Program-made: the position numbers and the translations under genes
DNA from: Gammaproteobacteria bacterium
GTDB lineage: Bacteria; Pseudomonadota; Gammaproteobacteria; Steroidobacterales; Woeseiaceae
Length of the DNA: 64,000 nucleotides
Reading direction: 5' to 3'
Assembly (NCBI GenBank): GCA_029863125.1
Contig: JAOTWB010000007.1
Location: 1 to 64,000, forward strand
Shown: one piece after another, positions 11,925 to 46,101 of the stretch
Layout: each line of letters begins with the position of its first letter
Position numbering within the stretch: the stretch's first letter is position 1
The notes under the pieces: generated by a model
Told to the model about the DNA's origin: nothing
Databases searched by the model: none
Seen by the model: only the letters and a program-made list of their open reading frames with translations

Positions 11925-12032
11925 AGAATCGAAATTCAGTCTCCGGGTACCGACAATTTCAGATCGAGCCGAGGATATACTACCCTGACAGAAAGGCCGC
12001 ACGATTCGACATAAGACCCTAGAGGAGGCGAG

Positions 12033-14792
12033 GTGCCACTGGACCAATTCAAAACCCAGGTTTTGTTACTGCATAGCGAGCAAAGCACCCTCGACAATCT
12101 GAGTGCAGGGTTCGACGACAGCTATACGGTACATTGTGCAACCAGCGGCAGCGAAGCCCTGAATACGCTTGTCGAGACTCCGATAAACGTCATTGTCTCG
12201 GCCCATGATCTGCCGGGCATGAGCGGCCTCGAGGCCCTCCGCGAAGCCAAAAAGCGTTCGCCGCAGACGATCGGTATCCTGTTGGCCGGAAATGCCGACG
12301 CCGGCCTGGAAGCGCTGGTCGGGGACAAGGAAGTGTTTCAGGTCGTTCGCGGTAATGTTACAGGCGAAACGATCCTCAAGCTTGTCGGCGACGCGACGCA
12401 GCAGATGCGCCTGATGACGTTGGCCGAATCCGCCAACGACACGGCCGCCAATGTCGAAGATACGATTGGCGAGCACATTGTCATGGAGACTTCGGAAAAC
12501 GGTGCCACAATTATAAGCGACGGCACCGGGCGCCTGAGGGCGCTGGATCCCGAAAAGGTGTCGGCCGCAGCGGCGATTGGTTCGCGGTCCGTCGACCTGC
12601 TGGTTTTGACCCAAGACCAGGACTTTCTCGCTACGATCAAGAGTTCGTCGCGTGGAATGCACACAGTCCACTACGCCAATACGCTCGCCGAGGCTGTTGA
12701 GACGATTCGCAAGTTCAAGGTCGGCGTCGCCATCGTCGACGCGGCCATGGTCGGCGAGAGAATCGAGCAGCTGACCGAACACCTGCGCAAGGGATCCGCG
12801 CGCCTCGTGTCGATTGTCGCGGGTCGTCGTGACGATGGCGAAATGCTCATGGACCTCATCAATCGAGGCAAGGTTTATCGCTTCCTGCTGAAACCGGTAT
12901 CGCCGGGTCGCGCGAGGCTGGCCGTAGAGGCATCCGTCAAATATCACCTCGAAGCGCCCGACGCGGCGTTCAAGGCAAAAAACGCGGCGCCTGGCGCGCC
13001 TGCTGCGAGACCCCCGGCAAAAGCAGCAGCGGACCCGAAGCCCGAATCGAGACCCGAGGCCGCAGCAACGCCTGCATCGAAGACACAAGCAGCCGCGCCG
13101 CAGTCCGGCGCTGCAGCGGATCCGGCGCCCGAGAGAAGGACCGGCTCCGGCGTCGAGTCAGAGATCAACGACAGCCTTGCGGATGCATTTGACGGCGATG
13201 ACTCGAGCTTCACGGAAACGATAAGCGGACTGTTCAGCAGCATCGGCAGAAAGAAGTCGGCTGAGGAAGACACCGGGCAACCGGATAAGAAAGCGGTCTC
13301 GTCCAAAGCGGCAGCCGCATCCGGCAGCTCGCTGCTGCGAAACCCGAAAATGCTTGGCGTCGCTGCCGCAGCGCTCGTTGCGATTGCCGCGACCCTGTTC
13401 TGGTTCACGGGCGGCCCCGACGAAGCCGTTACAAGAGACGAACCCGTTGTGGCTGTCCCTTCTACGGCATCCCCGGAATTTGAGGCGCCTCCGGAAGTTG
13501 GAGCCGGCGCCGATGTACAGCTTACGGACGGGCTGGTTGCGGAGGCGCTCGATCTTGCCGAGACCGCGTTGCTCGAATCCCGTCTCGACGATGCGAGCGA
13601 ACAACTGCGGCGTGTCAGCGCCGCGGACCCGGAGAATACGCGATTGCCGTTCCTGACAGCACAGCTGTCACAACTGCAGCTGCGCGCGCTACTGAGCGAT
13701 GCTCGCACAGCGATTCGCGAATCGCGATTCGAGGATGCCGAGGAGTCGCTCGCAAGCGCCCGTGCAATGGACGCTGCAGACGCTGCAGAGATCGATGCAG
13801 TCGTCGATGAGCTAACTGCCGCGCGCAGCGCACGGCAGGCGGAAGACATTCTGGCAATGGCCAACGCCCGTATCGAGGACGGCAGCCTGATCAGTCCGCC
13901 AAACGACAACGCCCGCTATTATTATGAGCTGGCGTTGTCGAGCGACCCCGAAAATACGGTGGCGCAACAGGGACTAACTGTTGTGGCCACCAAACTCGCG
14001 CTACAGGCTCGCGCAGAAATTGACAGCGGCAACCTGGATTCGGCCGAGAAGCTGCTCGGCGCCGCGAACGCGATCGATCCCGCCAACAGCGATCTTGCTG
14101 TGGCGGTCGATGCACTCTCGGAAAAGCGCGCGGCGATCCTGGAGGAACGGCGGCAGGCCCTGGCACAACGTCGTGCCGAGGACAGGCGGCGTGCTGAAGA
14201 GGCGGCGAAAATCGCGGCGGAGAAAGAGGCTGCCGAAGCGGCCAGGGTCGCAGCGGAGAGGAAGGCAGCAGAAGAACAGGCTGCTGCTGCAGCACCGCAG
14301 AAGGCCGCCGTCCAGCTTCCGGCGGGCGTGGCAGGCACCGCGGCGTCTGACTCTGATACGACTACACCTGACCCGGGGTCGGCGGGCGTGGCAAGCACCG
14401 CGGCATCTGACTCCGATACGACTACACCTGACCCGGGGTCGGCGGCCGCGGTTGACGGGCCGCAAGCCGAGACAATTGCGGAGACCGCAAATCGGCAGCC
14501 TGATGCTCCGGCGCCAGCCCCCGCCAGCTCCATGAAACGGATCAAGTATGTTGCTCCGAAGTACCCGCGCGCGGCGCAGAGGCGTAACCTGTCGGGCTGG
14601 GTAGACGTTATTTTCACTGTCAGCACCGACGGAACGGTCAAACATGTCAGCGTTCGCGATTCCGAGCCCGGTGACATATTCGTCACTGCCGCGACCAAGG
14701 CGGTCGAAAAATGGGAGTTCGAACCCGCGGTTGAAAACGGTTCCATCGTCGAAAAACGTATCGGCGTACGCTTGATGTTCGCGCTCGAATGA
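12033..14792 (+). CDS. Receiver-like/TPR/TonB C-terminal fusion protein
   Basis: A 919-residue protein starting at GTG behind AGAGGAGG. Residues ~8-120 resemble a response-regulator receiver but lack the acidic pocket and have Ala57 at the phospho-acceptor position. Residues ~187-305 are a second receiver with Asp236 and the conserved Lys287-Pro. A long Ala/Pro-rich linker follows, then one membrane helix (~440-460), helical TPR-like repeats (~495-700), a charged coiled segment (~700-755), a duplicated 20-residue Asp/Thr/Pro-rich unit, and a TonB C-terminal domain (~835-919; APKYPRAA, WVDVIFTVSTDG, AVEKWEFEP). The receivers would be cytoplasmic and TonB periplasmic. It may couple signalling to an energy-transduction or envelope function. 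No exbB/exbD is adjacent. Function is unknown. Confidence 0.8.
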   Translation: MPLDQFKTQVLLLHSEQSTLDNLSAGFDDSYTVHCATSGSEALNTLVETPINVIVSAHDLPGMSGLEALREAKKRSPQTIGILLAGNADAGLEALVGDKEVFQVVRGNVTGETILKLVGDATQQMRLMTLAESANDTAANVEDTIGEHIVMETSENGATIISDGTGRLRALDPEKVSAAAAIGSRSVDLLVLTQDQDFLATIKSSSRGMHTVHYANTLAEAVETIRKFKVGVAIVDAAMVGERIEQLTEHLRKGSARLVSIVAGRRDDGEMLMDLINRGKVYRFLLKPVSPGRARLAVEASVKYHLEAPDAAFKAKNAAPGAPAARPPAKAAADPKPESRPEAAATPASKTQAAAPQSGAAADPAPERRTGSGVESEINDSLADAFDGDDSSFTETISGLFSSIGRKKSAEEDTGQPDKKAVSSKAAAASGSSLLRNPKMLGVAAAALVAIAATLFWFTGGPDEAVTRDEPVVAVPSTASPEFEAPPEVGAGADVQLTDGLVAEALDLAETALLESRLDDASEQLRRVSAADPENTRLPFLTAQLSQLQLRALLSDARTAIRESRFEDAEESLASARAMDAADAAEIDAVVDELTAARSARQAEDILAMANARIEDGSLISPPNDNARYYYELALSSDPENTVAQQGLTVVATKLALQARAEIDSGNLDSAEKLLGAANAIDPANSDLAVAVDALSEKRAAILEERRQALAQRRAEDRRRAEEAAKIAAEKEAAEAARVAAERKAAEEQAAAAAPQKAAVQLPAGVAGTAASDSDTTTPDPGSAGVASTAASDSDTTTPDPGSAAAVDGPQAETIAETANRQPDAPAPAPASSMKRIKYVAPKYPRAAQRRNLSGWVDVIFTVSTDGTVKHVSVRDSEPGDIFVTAATKAVEKWEFEPAVENGSIVEKRIGVRLMFALE
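14325..14444 (+). repeat. Two tandem 60-bp repeats inside the TonB-fusion gene
   Basis: Units 14325-14384 and 14385-14444 differ at three positions by eye. Each encodes a 20-residue stretch with the core SDSDTTTPDPGS in the periplasmic linker before the TonB domain. The near identity indicates a recent duplication and a length-variable spacer. Confidence 0.85.
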
Positions 14793-28860: not shown

Positions 28861-28896
28861 CTAGTGTCCTGCTTGATTAATCAAACAGGACACTAG
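28861..28896. promoter_or_regulatory. 36-bp near-perfect palindrome between cphA and the Mur-ligase paralogue
   Basis: The arms CTAGTGTCCTGCTTGATT and AATCAAACAGGACACTAG pair over 18 bp with a single mismatch. The element includes the cphA stop codon and ends five bases before the next start codon, overlapping its AGGTG ribosome-binding site. As RNA it would fold into a long hairpin that could stop transcription, be processed, or mask translation initiation. As DNA it could be an operator. Confidence 0.75.
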
Positions 28897-31679
28897 TCGC
28901 CCTCTTCCCTTGCAATGCGCACCCCGCGCTCGTCGCTGATGATCTCGAGATCGTCACTGAGTTCAAAACCAACCGTATCGGGAAGCTCGACGGCCGCGGC
29001 CGGTTTCTTGTTCGAATCGACCACCCTCGCGCCCGAGTTAAAGTAGATGATCTGCTTCCAGGCACGCGTCGTGTTGTCGCCCAGGATGAGGATCAGATCC
29101 CCGCTTACCGCCATCTCGAGCGCCCGGGTGGTTGCTTCCTGCTCGTCCGGGATCACCTCGATCCGGTCGGCTGAAACGCCGGACTCCAGCAGCTTGTTCT
29201 TTAGCATGACGGCGACTTCGTCATGGCCCCGTCCGCGACGATTGTCGTCGCAGCGACAAATGAAGTAATCGAAATGAGCGGCTGCGATTTCAGCAATGTT
29301 CCGGATGTCTTCGTCGCGACGATCGCCGGGCGCTGCCAAGACGACAATGCGCCGACCGTCTACGTCGAGGCGATCGACAAGCAGGCACATGGCCCTGACG
29401 GCCGCCGGATTATGCGCGTAGTCGAGGATGACGCGGAAAGGATGCTCATCGTAGATATTCATGCGACCCGGCGCCTGGAAGAAAGTCGAACCAAACGTCC
29501 TGAGACCCTGGCGAATATCTTCGAGACCGATGTGCATATTGTGGGCAAGAGCCGCCGCGAACATCGCGTTCTGTACATTGTGTAATGCACGTCCCTCGAT
29601 CGTCGCCGGGATCAGGTGCGTCCAGACTAGCGGCGTGTGCGTTTCGTTGTCATAGATCGTGATCAGGTGACCGTTCATACCCTGTTCGAGAACGAATGCC
29701 TGCCCGCCGGCCTGTATATGCCGCTTGACCAGCGGGTGCGACGGATTCATCGTGACGTAGCTGAGCATTGCGGCATCGGTGTAGTCGGCCATCTGCAGGC
29801 ACAGTGGGTCGTCCGCATTCAGCACGGCTGCGTCAGTCGCAATCTCGATCGGCACGCGTTTGACCTCGGCCAGATCCTCGAGGGTATCGATGCCACTCAA
29901 GCCCAGGTGATCCGCCGACACATTGAGACAGGCGGAAACATTGCATTCCTGGAAACCGAGGCCGCTCCGCAGCATGCCCCCGCGTGCCGTTTCCATGACC
30001 GCCGCGTCAACGGACGGATCACGCAGGATCATCTGTGCCGAGACCGGCCCGGTCATGTCCCCGGGCACGCTCAGCTTGCCGTCGATATACACGCCGTCCG
30101 TCGACGTCAGGCCGACCGTACGGCCGGACATTTTGAGAATATGCGCCAGCATACGCGCCGTCGTCGTCTTGCCGTTCGTGCCGGTGACTGCAGCGATCGC
30201 AATTCGGCTCGGCTTGTCGGGCGGGAACAGCATGTCGATGACCGGGCCTGCAACGTCACGCGGCGTTCCTTCACTTGGCGCAACGTGCATGCGGAATCCA
30301 GGGCCGGCGTTCACCTCGCAAATTCCACCACCCGCCTGCCGATAAGACTCGGTTATGTCCCTGGTCAGGAAATCGACACCGCCTATGTCGAGGTCGATGG
30401 CACGGATCGCCCGAATTGCCATCTCACGGTTATCGGGATGTATGACGTCGGTGACATCGATGGCCGTGCCGCCGGTCGAGAGATTCGCCGTGGACCGCAG
30501 GTAAACGATTTCGCCTTTCGCAGGAACCGTCTCCTTGCTGTAGCCGAGCTTTGCCAGCAGCCGTTCCGCCTGGTGGTCGAACTCGAGGCGCGTCAAGACT
30601 TTCTCGTGACCAACTCCGCGACGCGGATCCTCGTTTACGATTTCAACGAGACGCTCGATTGTTGTTTCCCCGTCACCAACTACATGACCCGGCACACGTT
30701 TCGCTGCGGCAACCAATTTGCCATTTACAACCAGCAGGCGATGATCGAATCCGTCGATGTAGCTTTCGACGATGATCGTTTGGCCGTGCTCGCTCGCCTT
30801 GGCGAAACCCGTTTCAACTTCCGGAGCCGTGCGCAGGTTGATCGAAACGCCGCGCCCATGATTGCCGGAAAGCGGCTTGACCACGACCGGGTAGCCAATT
30901 TTCTCGGCAGCACGCACCGCATCCTGCGCCGTGCGCACCAGCACCTGCGCAGGCACCGGCAAGCCGAGATCACGCAAGATTCCGTTGGTCTCCTGTTTGT
31001 CCGACGCCAGTTCTACAGCGATATTGCTCGTGCGCCCGGTCGTTGTCGCCTGGATTCTCTGCTGGTATCGGCCCTGGCCGAACTGCACGAGGCTGTAACC
31101 GTTCAGGCGCAACCAGGGAATGTTGCGCGCTTCGGCCGCTCTGACCAGCGATGCCGTACTCGGCCCGAATTCGCGGCGCTGCGCAAAGCGAATAAACTGA
31201 TCCCGCGCCGCGGCAAAATCCCAGTCCGGAGGCGGCGCTTGTGCCGGCTTTATGTCCGCCGGTAACAGGCTATGCAGCAGGTCCAGCGCAAGCGCGCTCG
31301 CTGCACGCCCGACCGTTGCATCCTTGTACTGGAACACCATGTTGTAAAAACCGGGCCTGCCGTCGATCGAGCGAGTGCGTCCGAACGTGACATCCGAACC
31401 GGCGACGTTCTGCAGCTCGAGCGCCACGTGCTCCATCACGTGGCCAAGCCACGTGCCCTCGTCTTCGTACATGCGGCGAATAAAACCGCCGGGTTCACGA
31501 TAGGAGCAGCCGTGGTCGTGCAGGCCCGGCAAATAGGCCAGCAGCGGATTCAGGAAATCGTCACCCAGTCTCGTGGTCGGCCAGTGCTCCAGCTCTCCGA
31601 GATCCAGGATGTGTCGGATGACGGGAAAGCGGGCAAACATGTTCGGCCCGACGAATACATTGGTGCTCTCAATTTTCAT
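28893..31679 (-). CDS. cphA: Cyanophycin synthetase
   Basis: A 928-residue CphA with the full three-part architecture. These are an N-terminal domain (~1-160); an ATP-grasp domain (~165-490) with VVVKPLSGNHGRGVS around Lys268 and ICEVNAGPGFRMH; and a Mur ligase module with P-loop GTNGKTTT at 500-507, METARGGMLRSGLGF, NVSADHLGLSG and LDYAHNPAAVRAM. It polymerises aspartate and arginine into the storage polymer multi-L-arginyl-poly-L-aspartate in the cytoplasm. The length matches bacterial CphA. It follows cphB by 18 bp and precedes the Mur-like paralogue. The window therefore encodes synthesis and depolymerisation together, but no isoaspartyl dipeptidase. Confidence 0.95.
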   Translation of the reverse strand: MKIESTNVFVGPNMFARFPVIRHILDLGELEHWPTTRLGDDFLNPLLAYLPGLHDHGCSYREPGGFIRRMYEDEGTWLGHVMEHVALELQNVAGSDVTFGRTRSIDGRPGFYNMVFQYKDATVGRAASALALDLLHSLLPADIKPAQAPPPDWDFAAARDQFIRFAQRREFGPSTASLVRAAEARNIPWLRLNGYSLVQFGQGRYQQRIQATTTGRTSNIAVELASDKQETNGILRDLGLPVPAQVLVRTAQDAVRAAEKIGYPVVVKPLSGNHGRGVSINLRTAPEVETGFAKASEHGQTIIVESYIDGFDHRLLVVNGKLVAAAKRVPGHVVGDGETTIERLVEIVNEDPRRGVGHEKVLTRLEFDHQAERLLAKLGYSKETVPAKGEIVYLRSTANLSTGGTAIDVTDVIHPDNREMAIRAIRAIDLDIGGVDFLTRDITESYRQAGGGICEVNAGPGFRMHVAPSEGTPRDVAGPVIDMLFPPDKPSRIAIAAVTGTNGKTTTARMLAHILKMSGRTVGLTSTDGVYIDGKLSVPGDMTGPVSAQMILRDPSVDAAVMETARGGMLRSGLGFQECNVSACLNVSADHLGLSGIDTLEDLAEVKRVPIEIATDAAVLNADDPLCLQMADYTDAAMLSYVTMNPSHPLVKRHIQAGGQAFVLEQGMNGHLITIYDNETHTPLVWTHLIPATIEGRALHNVQNAMFAAALAHNMHIGLEDIRQGLRTFGSTFFQAPGRMNIYDEHPFRVILDYAHNPAAVRAMCLLVDRLDVDGRRIVVLAAPGDRRDEDIRNIAEIAAAHFDYFICRCDDNRRGRGHDEVAVMLKNKLLESGVSADRIEVIPDEQEATTRALEMAVSGDLILILGDNTTRAWKQIIYFNSGARVVDSNKKPAAAVELPDTVGFELSDDLEIISDERGVRIAREEGD

Positions 31680-41644: not shown

Positions 41645-43822
<2,178 letters not shown>

Positions 43823-46003
43823 TTACCAGAACACGTTCAGGCTGAATGACGCACTGCGTCCGGCCTGGGCGAGATAGGGAATAACAGGATCGTTCGGCGA
43901 CAGGCTGCGCACATCGGACCAGTTCCAGTAGGTGCGGTCCGTCAGATTATGCAGCCCGGCGCGCATAACGGCGCGCGAGCCGAGTACTTGCGTCAGGTAC
44001 AGATCGAAGACAGCGTGGCCGGTAGGCTCGAACACGTCGCCGGTTGATTCGTCACGTCGGTCGTAGGCATCGGTAAACGTGCCTTTTAGCCGCAGCTGAC
44101 GCGATTCGTCAGCGGAATACCAGGTAAAACCGGCAGTGAGCTGCGCGGGCCCGACTGAATTCAGCGCCTGGCCGTTGTCCTTGTTCTTGCCGCGCGCATA
44201 GTACGCGGCTCCGTCGAAGCCGAAAGATTCGTTCTTGCCAAAACGGGCCGTCCAGCCCGCCTCGACTCCTTCGATCTCGGTTGCCGAAATATTCTGCGAC
44301 TGAAACAACGTGAAACCGCTCTCAGGATCAAGGCCGAGGTTGATCTTGGACTCAATGAAGTCGTCGTATTCCGTGCGGAATACCGAAAGACGTGCCGACG
44401 CGCGAATGCCGTGCCAGCGGAGTCCAACATCGAACCCATCCGACGATTCCGATCTGAGATCAGGGTTCGGAATTGCGCGATAAGCGAAAAACGGCATGTC
44501 CAGGCTGATGTTTGCATCCGAATACGGCGGTGCCCGAAAGCCGTGGGAATACTGGATATAGGCATCGACGCCCGGCGTCAGGCTATAGATGACACCCAGC
44601 TTGGGCGACAGCTCCGATTCCTCGAGGCTGACGATCTCGTAGCTCGGATAGTCCTCGAGATAGATCGCATCAGGCCGCGGCGACAGATCGAAACGGTCGG
44701 CACGGATTGCGGCAATGATCGTCCAGCTGCCGGCGCTGATCGTATCTTCAACAAACGCCGCTATCTCCGTCGTTGTGCTGACCGGGAAATCGCGTAATGG
44801 AAAAACTTCACCCAGGAGGACGTTGGTCCGGGTGCCTGTTGCCAGATCGGTCGACATTCCATCGCGATATTCCTCGGTATCCCGATCGCGATACTCGAGC
44901 CCGAAGCCCAGGCGATGGGACGCGACCTCGCCGCTGAAGTCTTTCCAAAGGTTCAGCTCGACACCGCGTATCTCCTGCTGGTACGAGAAAAACCGGTCGA
45001 TTGAGACGGGCGTTCTCGCAGCCGCCCGCTCATCCAGCGTGTACTGCTGAATGTCGGCCATTTCGTAATACGCCCGCACGACACCAGCATTGATCCAGCT
45101 TTCGGGCGATCCGAATTCGTAGGCAAGATTGACGACATCCATTTCATAGGAGTCGTCGCCTTCCAGTGCGGTCGTCGATCGATAGCGACCTTCGCCGAGC
45201 ACCGAATTCAGGTCCGACAGCGTATGCGAATCCTGGTGGATGAAGCTGGCTCGCCAGGTCCGGCCCCAGGGATCATCGGCAACGAACTTGATGAGCGCCG
45301 TCTGCCGCCGATGGTCTTTCGTGTCAATGCCGTCCGACGCCGCAGCGGAGTCAAGCTGCTCGCCGTCACGCCAGCTGAAACCGGCCATCAGTCCGAGGGA
45401 GCGGTCTCCCACCGCCAACATCGCCTGTGCGTGCCGGCTTTGATCAGCATCGCGCCACGTGCCCAGAAAGTCACCGCCGCCGCCATTGTCGCCGACAAGA
45501 TCTCCCGGGTCCGGCGTGCGCACGGCGACTACTCCACCGATCGCAGAACTGCCGTAAAGCGCGGAAGCCGGTCCATGCAGAACTTCGATACTCTGAACCA
45601 GGCCGGCGTCGATAAAATCGCGAGTTGCGTTCGAGAAACTGCCCGTATCGAACTGGTCCGTCAGCGGTACGCCGTCGACAAGAATAGCCACACGGTTGCC
45701 GCCGATGCCGCGGATGTTGATGCCTTCCGTGCCAAAGCGCGTACCGGCCGCCTCGTAGTCGACGCCGGGGACGTAACGAAACGCGTCGCCAATCGAAGTT
45801 GCCAGCTCGTTATTAAGCTCTGCTCTGGACAACACCGTGACATTGGCCGCGATTTCGCGGATCGAGCGCTCGTCCTTGTGGGCAACGACGACGATCTGCT
45901 CAACGGGCGCACCAGAGTCGCCAGTCTCCGCCCGGTCGGCCGCGAACACCGTGAACGCAGCGCCCAATACTGCGCCAAGCATGGCTTTCAGAACGGATTG
46001 CAT
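43823..46003 (-). CDS. TonB-dependent outer membrane receptor
   Basis: A 726-residue receptor. A signal peptide (to about VFAADR) precedes the TonB box region EQIVVVAHKDERS. The plug domain has INIRGIGGNRVAILVDGVPL and LHGPASALYGSSAIGGVV. The 22-strand barrel ends in SLNVFW. The pattern is closest to heme/hemoglobin or copper receptors. Upstream of nirS by 36 bp and behind the FNR/DNR-type box, it may import heme or a metal for the denitrification enzymes. The TonB-domain fusion at 12 kb is a possible but unproven energy partner. ATG 46003 is preferred over an upstream in-frame start for its signal peptide. Confidence 0.9.
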   Translation of the reverse strand: MQSVLKAMLGAVLGAAFTVFAADRAETGDSGAPVEQIVVVAHKDERSIREIAANVTVLSRAELNNELATSIGDAFRYVPGVDYEAAGTRFGTEGINIRGIGGNRVAILVDGVPLTDQFDTGSFSNATRDFIDAGLVQSIEVLHGPASALYGSSAIGGVVAVRTPDPGDLVGDNGGGGDFLGTWRDADQSRHAQAMLAVGDRSLGLMAGFSWRDGEQLDSAAASDGIDTKDHRRQTALIKFVADDPWGRTWRASFIHQDSHTLSDLNSVLGEGRYRSTTALEGDDSYEMDVVNLAYEFGSPESWINAGVVRAYYEMADIQQYTLDERAAARTPVSIDRFFSYQQEIRGVELNLWKDFSGEVASHRLGFGLEYRDRDTEEYRDGMSTDLATGTRTNVLLGEVFPLRDFPVSTTTEIAAFVEDTISAGSWTIIAAIRADRFDLSPRPDAIYLEDYPSYEIVSLEESELSPKLGVIYSLTPGVDAYIQYSHGFRAPPYSDANISLDMPFFAYRAIPNPDLRSESSDGFDVGLRWHGIRASARLSVFRTEYDDFIESKINLGLDPESGFTLFQSQNISATEIEGVEAGWTARFGKNESFGFDGAAYYARGKNKDNGQALNSVGPAQLTAGFTWYSADESRQLRLKGTFTDAYDRRDESTGDVFEPTGHAVFDLYLTQVLGSRAVMRAGLHNLTDRTYWNWSDVRSLSPNDPVIPYLAQAGRSASFSLNVFW

Positions 46004-46101
46004 AAAACTGCCTGCCTTCAGGTCGAGGGCAGCGGGCCTGACAACAGGGCCGGCCATCCCATACCGCAGCCTAAAGCTAGTTCTTCCGGGACGGCGCCGC
46101 C

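Follow-up and report, generated by a model that had tools for sequence, protein, structure and literature searches.

What does a protein do that carries two receiver domains at one end, a TonB C-terminal domain (CTD) at the other and a single transmembrane (TM) helix between them? A gene for such a protein lies in the window, the 64,000-nt stretch of DNA analysed here, which comes from a member of the Woeseiaceae, common and little-cultured bacteria of marine sediments. The original prediction, made from the letters of the window, had proposed a single receiver–receiver–TM–TPR–TonB fusion protein in which a cytoplasmic signal could act on a TonB-type periplasmic domain. It had also suggested that one of the receivers might be phosphorylated. 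How bacterial pseudo-receivers work is an open problem (PMC12632262).

Gene and domain architecture

The ORF at 12033–14792 (+) is real and intact and encodes 919 aa from a GTG start (Table 1). A Pfam search of the protein matched Response_reg in two stretches (1.4e-12) and TonB_C (PF03544) at residues 841–917 (7e-18), with a weak match to TPR_19 between them (0.0063, below the Pfam cut-off). There is only one hydrophobic helix, residues 440–458. It is flanked by Lys/Arg on the N-terminal side, which would place the receivers in the cytoplasm and the TPR–TonB part in the periplasm.

Table 1 Features of the receiver–TonB fusion gene, in window coordinates.
Feature	Coordinates	Strand	Basis
Whole gene: receiver 1–receiver 2–TM–TPR–TonB_C fusion, 919 aa	12033..14792	+	60 full-length single-ORF homologues
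Shine-Dalgarno-like GAGGAGG, few bases 5' of the GTG start	12022..12028 (position approximate)	+	Sequence
Receiver 1, pseudo-receiver, residues 7–125: HS for DD, Ala57 for Asp, Ala for Thr, RG for KP	12051..12407	+	Pfam, alignment
Conserved inter-receiver linker with IVMETSENG motif, residues 126–181	12408..12575	+	Mean pairwise identity 0.70
Receiver 2, pseudo-receiver, residues 185–312: Asp236 and Lys287, without DD pair, without Thr/Ser	12585..12968	+	Alignment, receiver 2 tree
Asp236 codon, acceptor position of receiver 2	12738..12740	+	Asp in 60/60
Variable Ala/Pro-rich cytoplasmic linker	12969..13340	+	Mean pairwise identity 0.37, dN/dS 0.16–0.45
Single transmembrane helix, residues 440–458, predicted N-in from positive flank, no SxxxH	13350..13406	+	Hydrophobic helix
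Predicted periplasmic TPR-like helical hairpins, residues 498–692	13524..14108	+	AF2 pLDDT >90; Foldseek TPR/BamD-type matches
Long helix, then disordered Ala/Pro-rich spacer	14109..14528	+	AF2 model, identity profile
TonB C-terminal domain, residues 833–919	14529..14789	+	PF03544 7e-18; 6i97_D Z 13.7

An AF2 model of the periplasmic half, built with 46 homologues, had a mean pLDDT of 87, mostly >90 in the helical hairpins at its start and the TonB CTD at its end; these are connected by a long helix and a disordered spacer. The CTD superposed on the CTD of P. aeruginosa TonB bound to FoxA (6i97_D) with a Z of 13.7 and an rmsd of 1.3 over 87 residues, the two domains sharing 36% identity. Fold matches of the preceding region, obtained with Foldseek and VIA-align, were of the TPR/BamD type with a middling score; together with the weak profile scores, the model suggests that residues 498–692 may be TPR repeats. 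Helical VIA-align matches, 14-3-3 proteins among them, were attributed to a chance arrangement of helices. The receiver half was modelled with moderate confidence (pLDDT 71) as two receiver-like folds, with helix alpha4 of receiver 1 not seen at that pLDDT, and its best solved-structure matches were PleD and other receivers. The predicted layout was thus borne out by Pfam, by AF2 and by the homologues described below, its TPR signal being weak.

Within the disordered spacer, a 60-base tandem duplication (14324–14443) gives AGVA(G/S)TAASDSDTTTPDPGS twice, in nearly identical copies. No tRNAs or Rfam elements were found in the 64,000-nt window, and a promoter and terminator scan gave nothing above chance. 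Among the other genes of the window are one for a cyanophycin synthetase-like protein (28893–31679; Cyanophycin_syn, RimK/ATP-grasp and Mur ligase domains) and, at 41645–46057, one for a cytochrome cd1-type protein (Cytochrom_D1 with N-terminal cytochrome c domains) directly adjoining a TonB-dependent receptor gene on the same strand. Elsewhere in the genome (G000, contig C34, ~68744–70733; L147, L148, L152), a row of genes encodes a MotA/ExbB-like protein, two ExbD-like proteins and a proline-rich TonB_C protein, an arrangement that recalls AglRQS together with an AgmX-type protein.

Conservation and genomic context

A frameshift or chimera joining two genes, the objection foreseen in the original prediction, is ruled out on three grounds. 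Sixty full-length sequences, of which the window protein is one, were aligned, all of them single ORFs. In most loci long enough to judge, the gene lay between thrS and a tetR-type gene (thrS-X-tetR), with glnS and polyamine genes beyond, and a sister-genus genome of the Woeseiaceae in one contig has a similar long frame of 953 aa. The orthologues likewise do not split after the receivers, apart from broken frames in a few MAG contigs (e.g. L089, L044); a paralogous operon, described below, does.

The query had a match somewhere in 59 of 60 related genomes, and the fusion gene was matched in 57 of the 61 sampled congeners. It is near-universal in the sampled genus and lineage-wide in Woeseiaceae, the related loci being recorded as Woeseiaceae, Gammaproteobacteria or Proteobacteria MAGs. 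An E. coli collection gave no match, and a one-receiver relative searched against a 299-genome sample of the phylum returned almost only TonB_C matches, the window's own genome apart. Class-wide, receiver 2 matched mostly ordinary dual-receiver regulators of about 310–340 aa; matches to it occurred in 57 of 147 genomes of the order, with TonB linkage known only for the loci read.

Receivers without complete phosphorylation sites

Pseudo-receivers were called by the five-residue phosphorylation-site definition of PMC12632262. Receiver 1 lacks all five residues, with HS/Ala57/Ala/RG where the split relatives have DD/D/T/K. Receiver 2 of the fused proteins has T-K/Q in place of DD and Gly/Ala in place of Thr/Ser, and keeps Asp236 and Lys287 in 60/60 sequences, Asp195 being likewise invariant. 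The contrast noted at the outset, one receiver without a phospho-acceptor and the other with Asp236 and Lys287, stands. Judged by their residues, both receivers are pseudo-receivers under the definition of PMC12632262; the complete site of a typical response regulator is absent from both and present only in receiver 1 of the split paralogues.

By identity and by dN/dS, the receivers are the most constrained parts of the protein. Mean pairwise identity was 0.75 and 0.78 in the two receivers, 0.65 in TonB_C, 0.56 in the TPR region and 0.37 in the cytoplasmic linker. Values of dN/dS, from a simple Nei-Gojobori calculation on five pairs, several of which had a dS near 1, were 0.03–0.08 for the receivers, 0.07–0.17 for TonB_C and 0.16–0.45 for the cytoplasmic linker. 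The lower values of the receivers relative to TonB_C indicate that these non-catalytic domains are under selection and in use, though very probably not as phosphate switches.

This bears on the proposal that Asp236 is phosphorylated, in its fullest form by an unlinked kinase, which would make the protein a membrane-bound response regulator with a TonB output. The invariance of Asp236, Lys287 and Asp195 speaks for it, as does the kinase that adjoins the split relatives. The replacements of the acid pair and of Thr/Ser argue the other way: among the TonB-linked relatives examined, none has the acid pair in its receiver 2, whether or not its receiver 1 is canonical, the window protein lacks Thr/Ser as well, and some single-receiver relatives lose the Lys or the Asp of receiver 2. 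No kinase of the split-operon type was seen in the window's own assembly, a weak absence at 74% completeness. We therefore consider this part of the original prediction very unlikely, although the 60/60 conservation of Asp236 and Lys287 could reflect residual phospho-chemistry.

Split operon and other relatives

In 12 of the 61 sampled congeners we found a split paralogue of the fusion, an operon encoding a sensor kinase (HisKA, HATPase_c and a weak DAHL), a dual receiver and a TM–TPR–TonB protein whose gene starts near, or overlaps, the end of the dual-receiver gene. Each of these 12 genomes has both the kinase and the split TonB, and neither occurs in any of the others sampled. Twelve split dual receivers were aligned, some of them from outside the family but within the order. 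All combine a fully canonical receiver 1 (DD/D/T/K) with a receiver 2 in which D and K remain and the acid pair is missing. Motifs similar to IVMETSENG (IVLE/VVMS) were recognised by eye in the split relatives.

In other families of the order, receiver 2 alone is fused directly to TM–TPR–TonB. One such locus (L105, 3922–8978) encodes a CheA-like Hpt/HATPase kinase, a CheY-like receiver and a CheX phosphatase, followed by the R2–TM–TPR–TonB protein; related single-receiver forms adjoin rpoD and other non-signalling genes (by eye). Outside the order, L138 (564–2367, −) has a dual-receiver regulator and, after it, an ORF in which a TM helix is combined with a weak match to TonB_C (5e-4); this pair is possibly the same split system. 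Common to all forms is a pseudo-receiver 2 with a TPR–TonB arm.

The tree of receiver 2, which rests on 128 columns and has long branches, placed the fused, single and split forms together and apart from the ordinary dual-receiver regulators on which it was rooted (100/98). The split forms made one group (98/93) and the fused and single forms another (93/85). The best tree did not recover the fused proteins strictly as one clade; their monophyly was not rejected (p-AU 0.34).

The neighbourhoods of these relatives also bear on whether the protein signals at all. It might be a static scaffold of the envelope that passes no signal, its receivers being only a cytoplasmic anchor, for example for polar localisation. 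Its standing as a core gene between housekeeping genes, matched in 57/61 congeners, would suit such a role, as would the rpoD-type surroundings of the single-receiver forms and the example of FrzS, whose receiver is described as lacking the acceptor Asp and controlling localisation (PMC1974792). We nevertheless regard a purely static role as unlikely, since the kinase and the CheA/CheY/CheX neighbours of relatives point to signalling in the family.

Proposed mechanism and origin

A different reading sees the protein as a regulated TonB energiser, with an ExbB/ExbD-type motor driving the TM helix, the TonB CTD opening TonB-dependent receptors and the receivers acting as a gate. The CTD is indeed very close to the receptor-bound form, a TonB-dependent receptor is encoded in the same window, and the genome encodes ExbBD-like and TolQR-like proteins and a third, MotA/ExbB–ExbD–ExbD cluster. 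The SxxxH motif of the TM helix has a role in TonB proteins that are driven by ExbBD. It is absent from the single TM helix of the window protein and its homologues, which argues against standard ExbBD energisation; moreover, the helix follows 440 cytoplasmic residues, unlike that of TonB, and no recognisable ExbBD adjoined the gene in any of the loci read, the ExbD-like genes of its own genome lying on other contigs. Another TonB of the genome, with His in its TM helix, sits in a yqgE/ruvX neighbourhood. Taken together, these points make the energiser reading quite unlikely.

We instead favour, with a probability of roughly 0.55, an inner-membrane adaptor that connects cytoplasm to periplasm without phosphorylation and is derived from a two-component module with a TonB-like output. 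The two pseudo-receivers may serve as a docking or dimerisation platform for a cytoplasmic partner, whose binding, rather than phosphate, would probably set the state of the protein. Through the single TM helix, the receivers would then control the position or clustering of the periplasmic TPR arm, at whose end the TonB CTD could engage an outer-membrane or periplasmic partner. Both the topology and the direction of the signal are as we infer them here. The idea of a cytoplasmic signal acting on a TonB-type periplasmic domain, with which the analysis began, holds on this predicted topology and is strengthened by the kinase of the split relatives.

The ancestor was plausibly a module of sensor kinase, dual receiver and TM–TPR–TonB protein, in which the receiver protein became fused to the TonB-like output; later, in Woeseiaceae, receiver 1 would have lost its whole phosphorylation site while remaining under strong constraint. 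In the split system, the kinase would phosphorylate receiver 1, and the receiver 1–receiver 2 protein would act on the TonB-like protein. The fusion of receiver and TonB in relatives supports a physical partnership of the two in the split system. More tentatively, these proteins may represent a class of two-component and chemosensory-type systems that end neither in DNA binding nor in an enzyme: their output would be a TonB-like protein of the envelope, and a receiver module would act through the inner membrane on its TonB domain in the periplasm; the Woeseiaceae would then hold a version in which one protein signals without phosphate.

One lineage thus offers a matched set of split forms (canonical receiver 1 plus kinase), fused forms (degenerate receiver 1) and one-receiver forms, all sharing a related pseudo-receiver 2 and a TPR–TonB output. 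The set is a natural experiment on what stays when phosphorylation is lost, and it outlines a way in which TonB-type proteins of the periplasm could be controlled from the cytoplasm.

Comparison with known systems

The fusion shares the fold and sequence of its CTD with energy transducer TonB, and differs in lacking SxxxH and in having an internal TM helix, a large cytoplasmic half and a TPR arm. Orthology to TonB3 (twitching) was rejected, the TonB that adjoins yqgE/ruvX, which we take to be the TonB3 layout, being a different protein of the genome. PleD has a live receiver next to a non-catalytic adaptor receiver. The fusion resembles it in its tandem receivers, for which PleD is the best solved match, and the split relatives do so further in pairing a canonical receiver 1 with a pseudo-receiver 2; it differs in that its receiver 1 is dead and its output is TM–TPR–TonB, with no GGDEF. 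The likeness to FrzS lies in a receiver that has no phosphorylation site and is under constraint (PMC12632262, PMC1974792), whereas the fusion is membrane-anchored and has a periplasmic TonB output.

The view that the arrangement is unlike described systems held in part. A receiver paired with a TonB output was not found in the literature searched, a scope outside which most subscription journals lay, but the general plan has a precedent in GltG/PglI of the Myxococcus xanthus gliding machinery, an FHA–TM–TonB_C protein, with FHA on the cytoplasmic side and TonB_C in the periplasm, that contacts the AglRQS motor and is encoded in glt clusters (PMC3169522). Both proteins have a cytoplasmic signalling domain, one TM helix and a periplasmic part ending in TonB_C. 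GltG/PglI carries FHA where the fusion has receivers, and no glt-type cluster lies beside the fusion gene; it is a precedent for the logic of tying a cytoplasmic domain to a periplasmic TonB_C.
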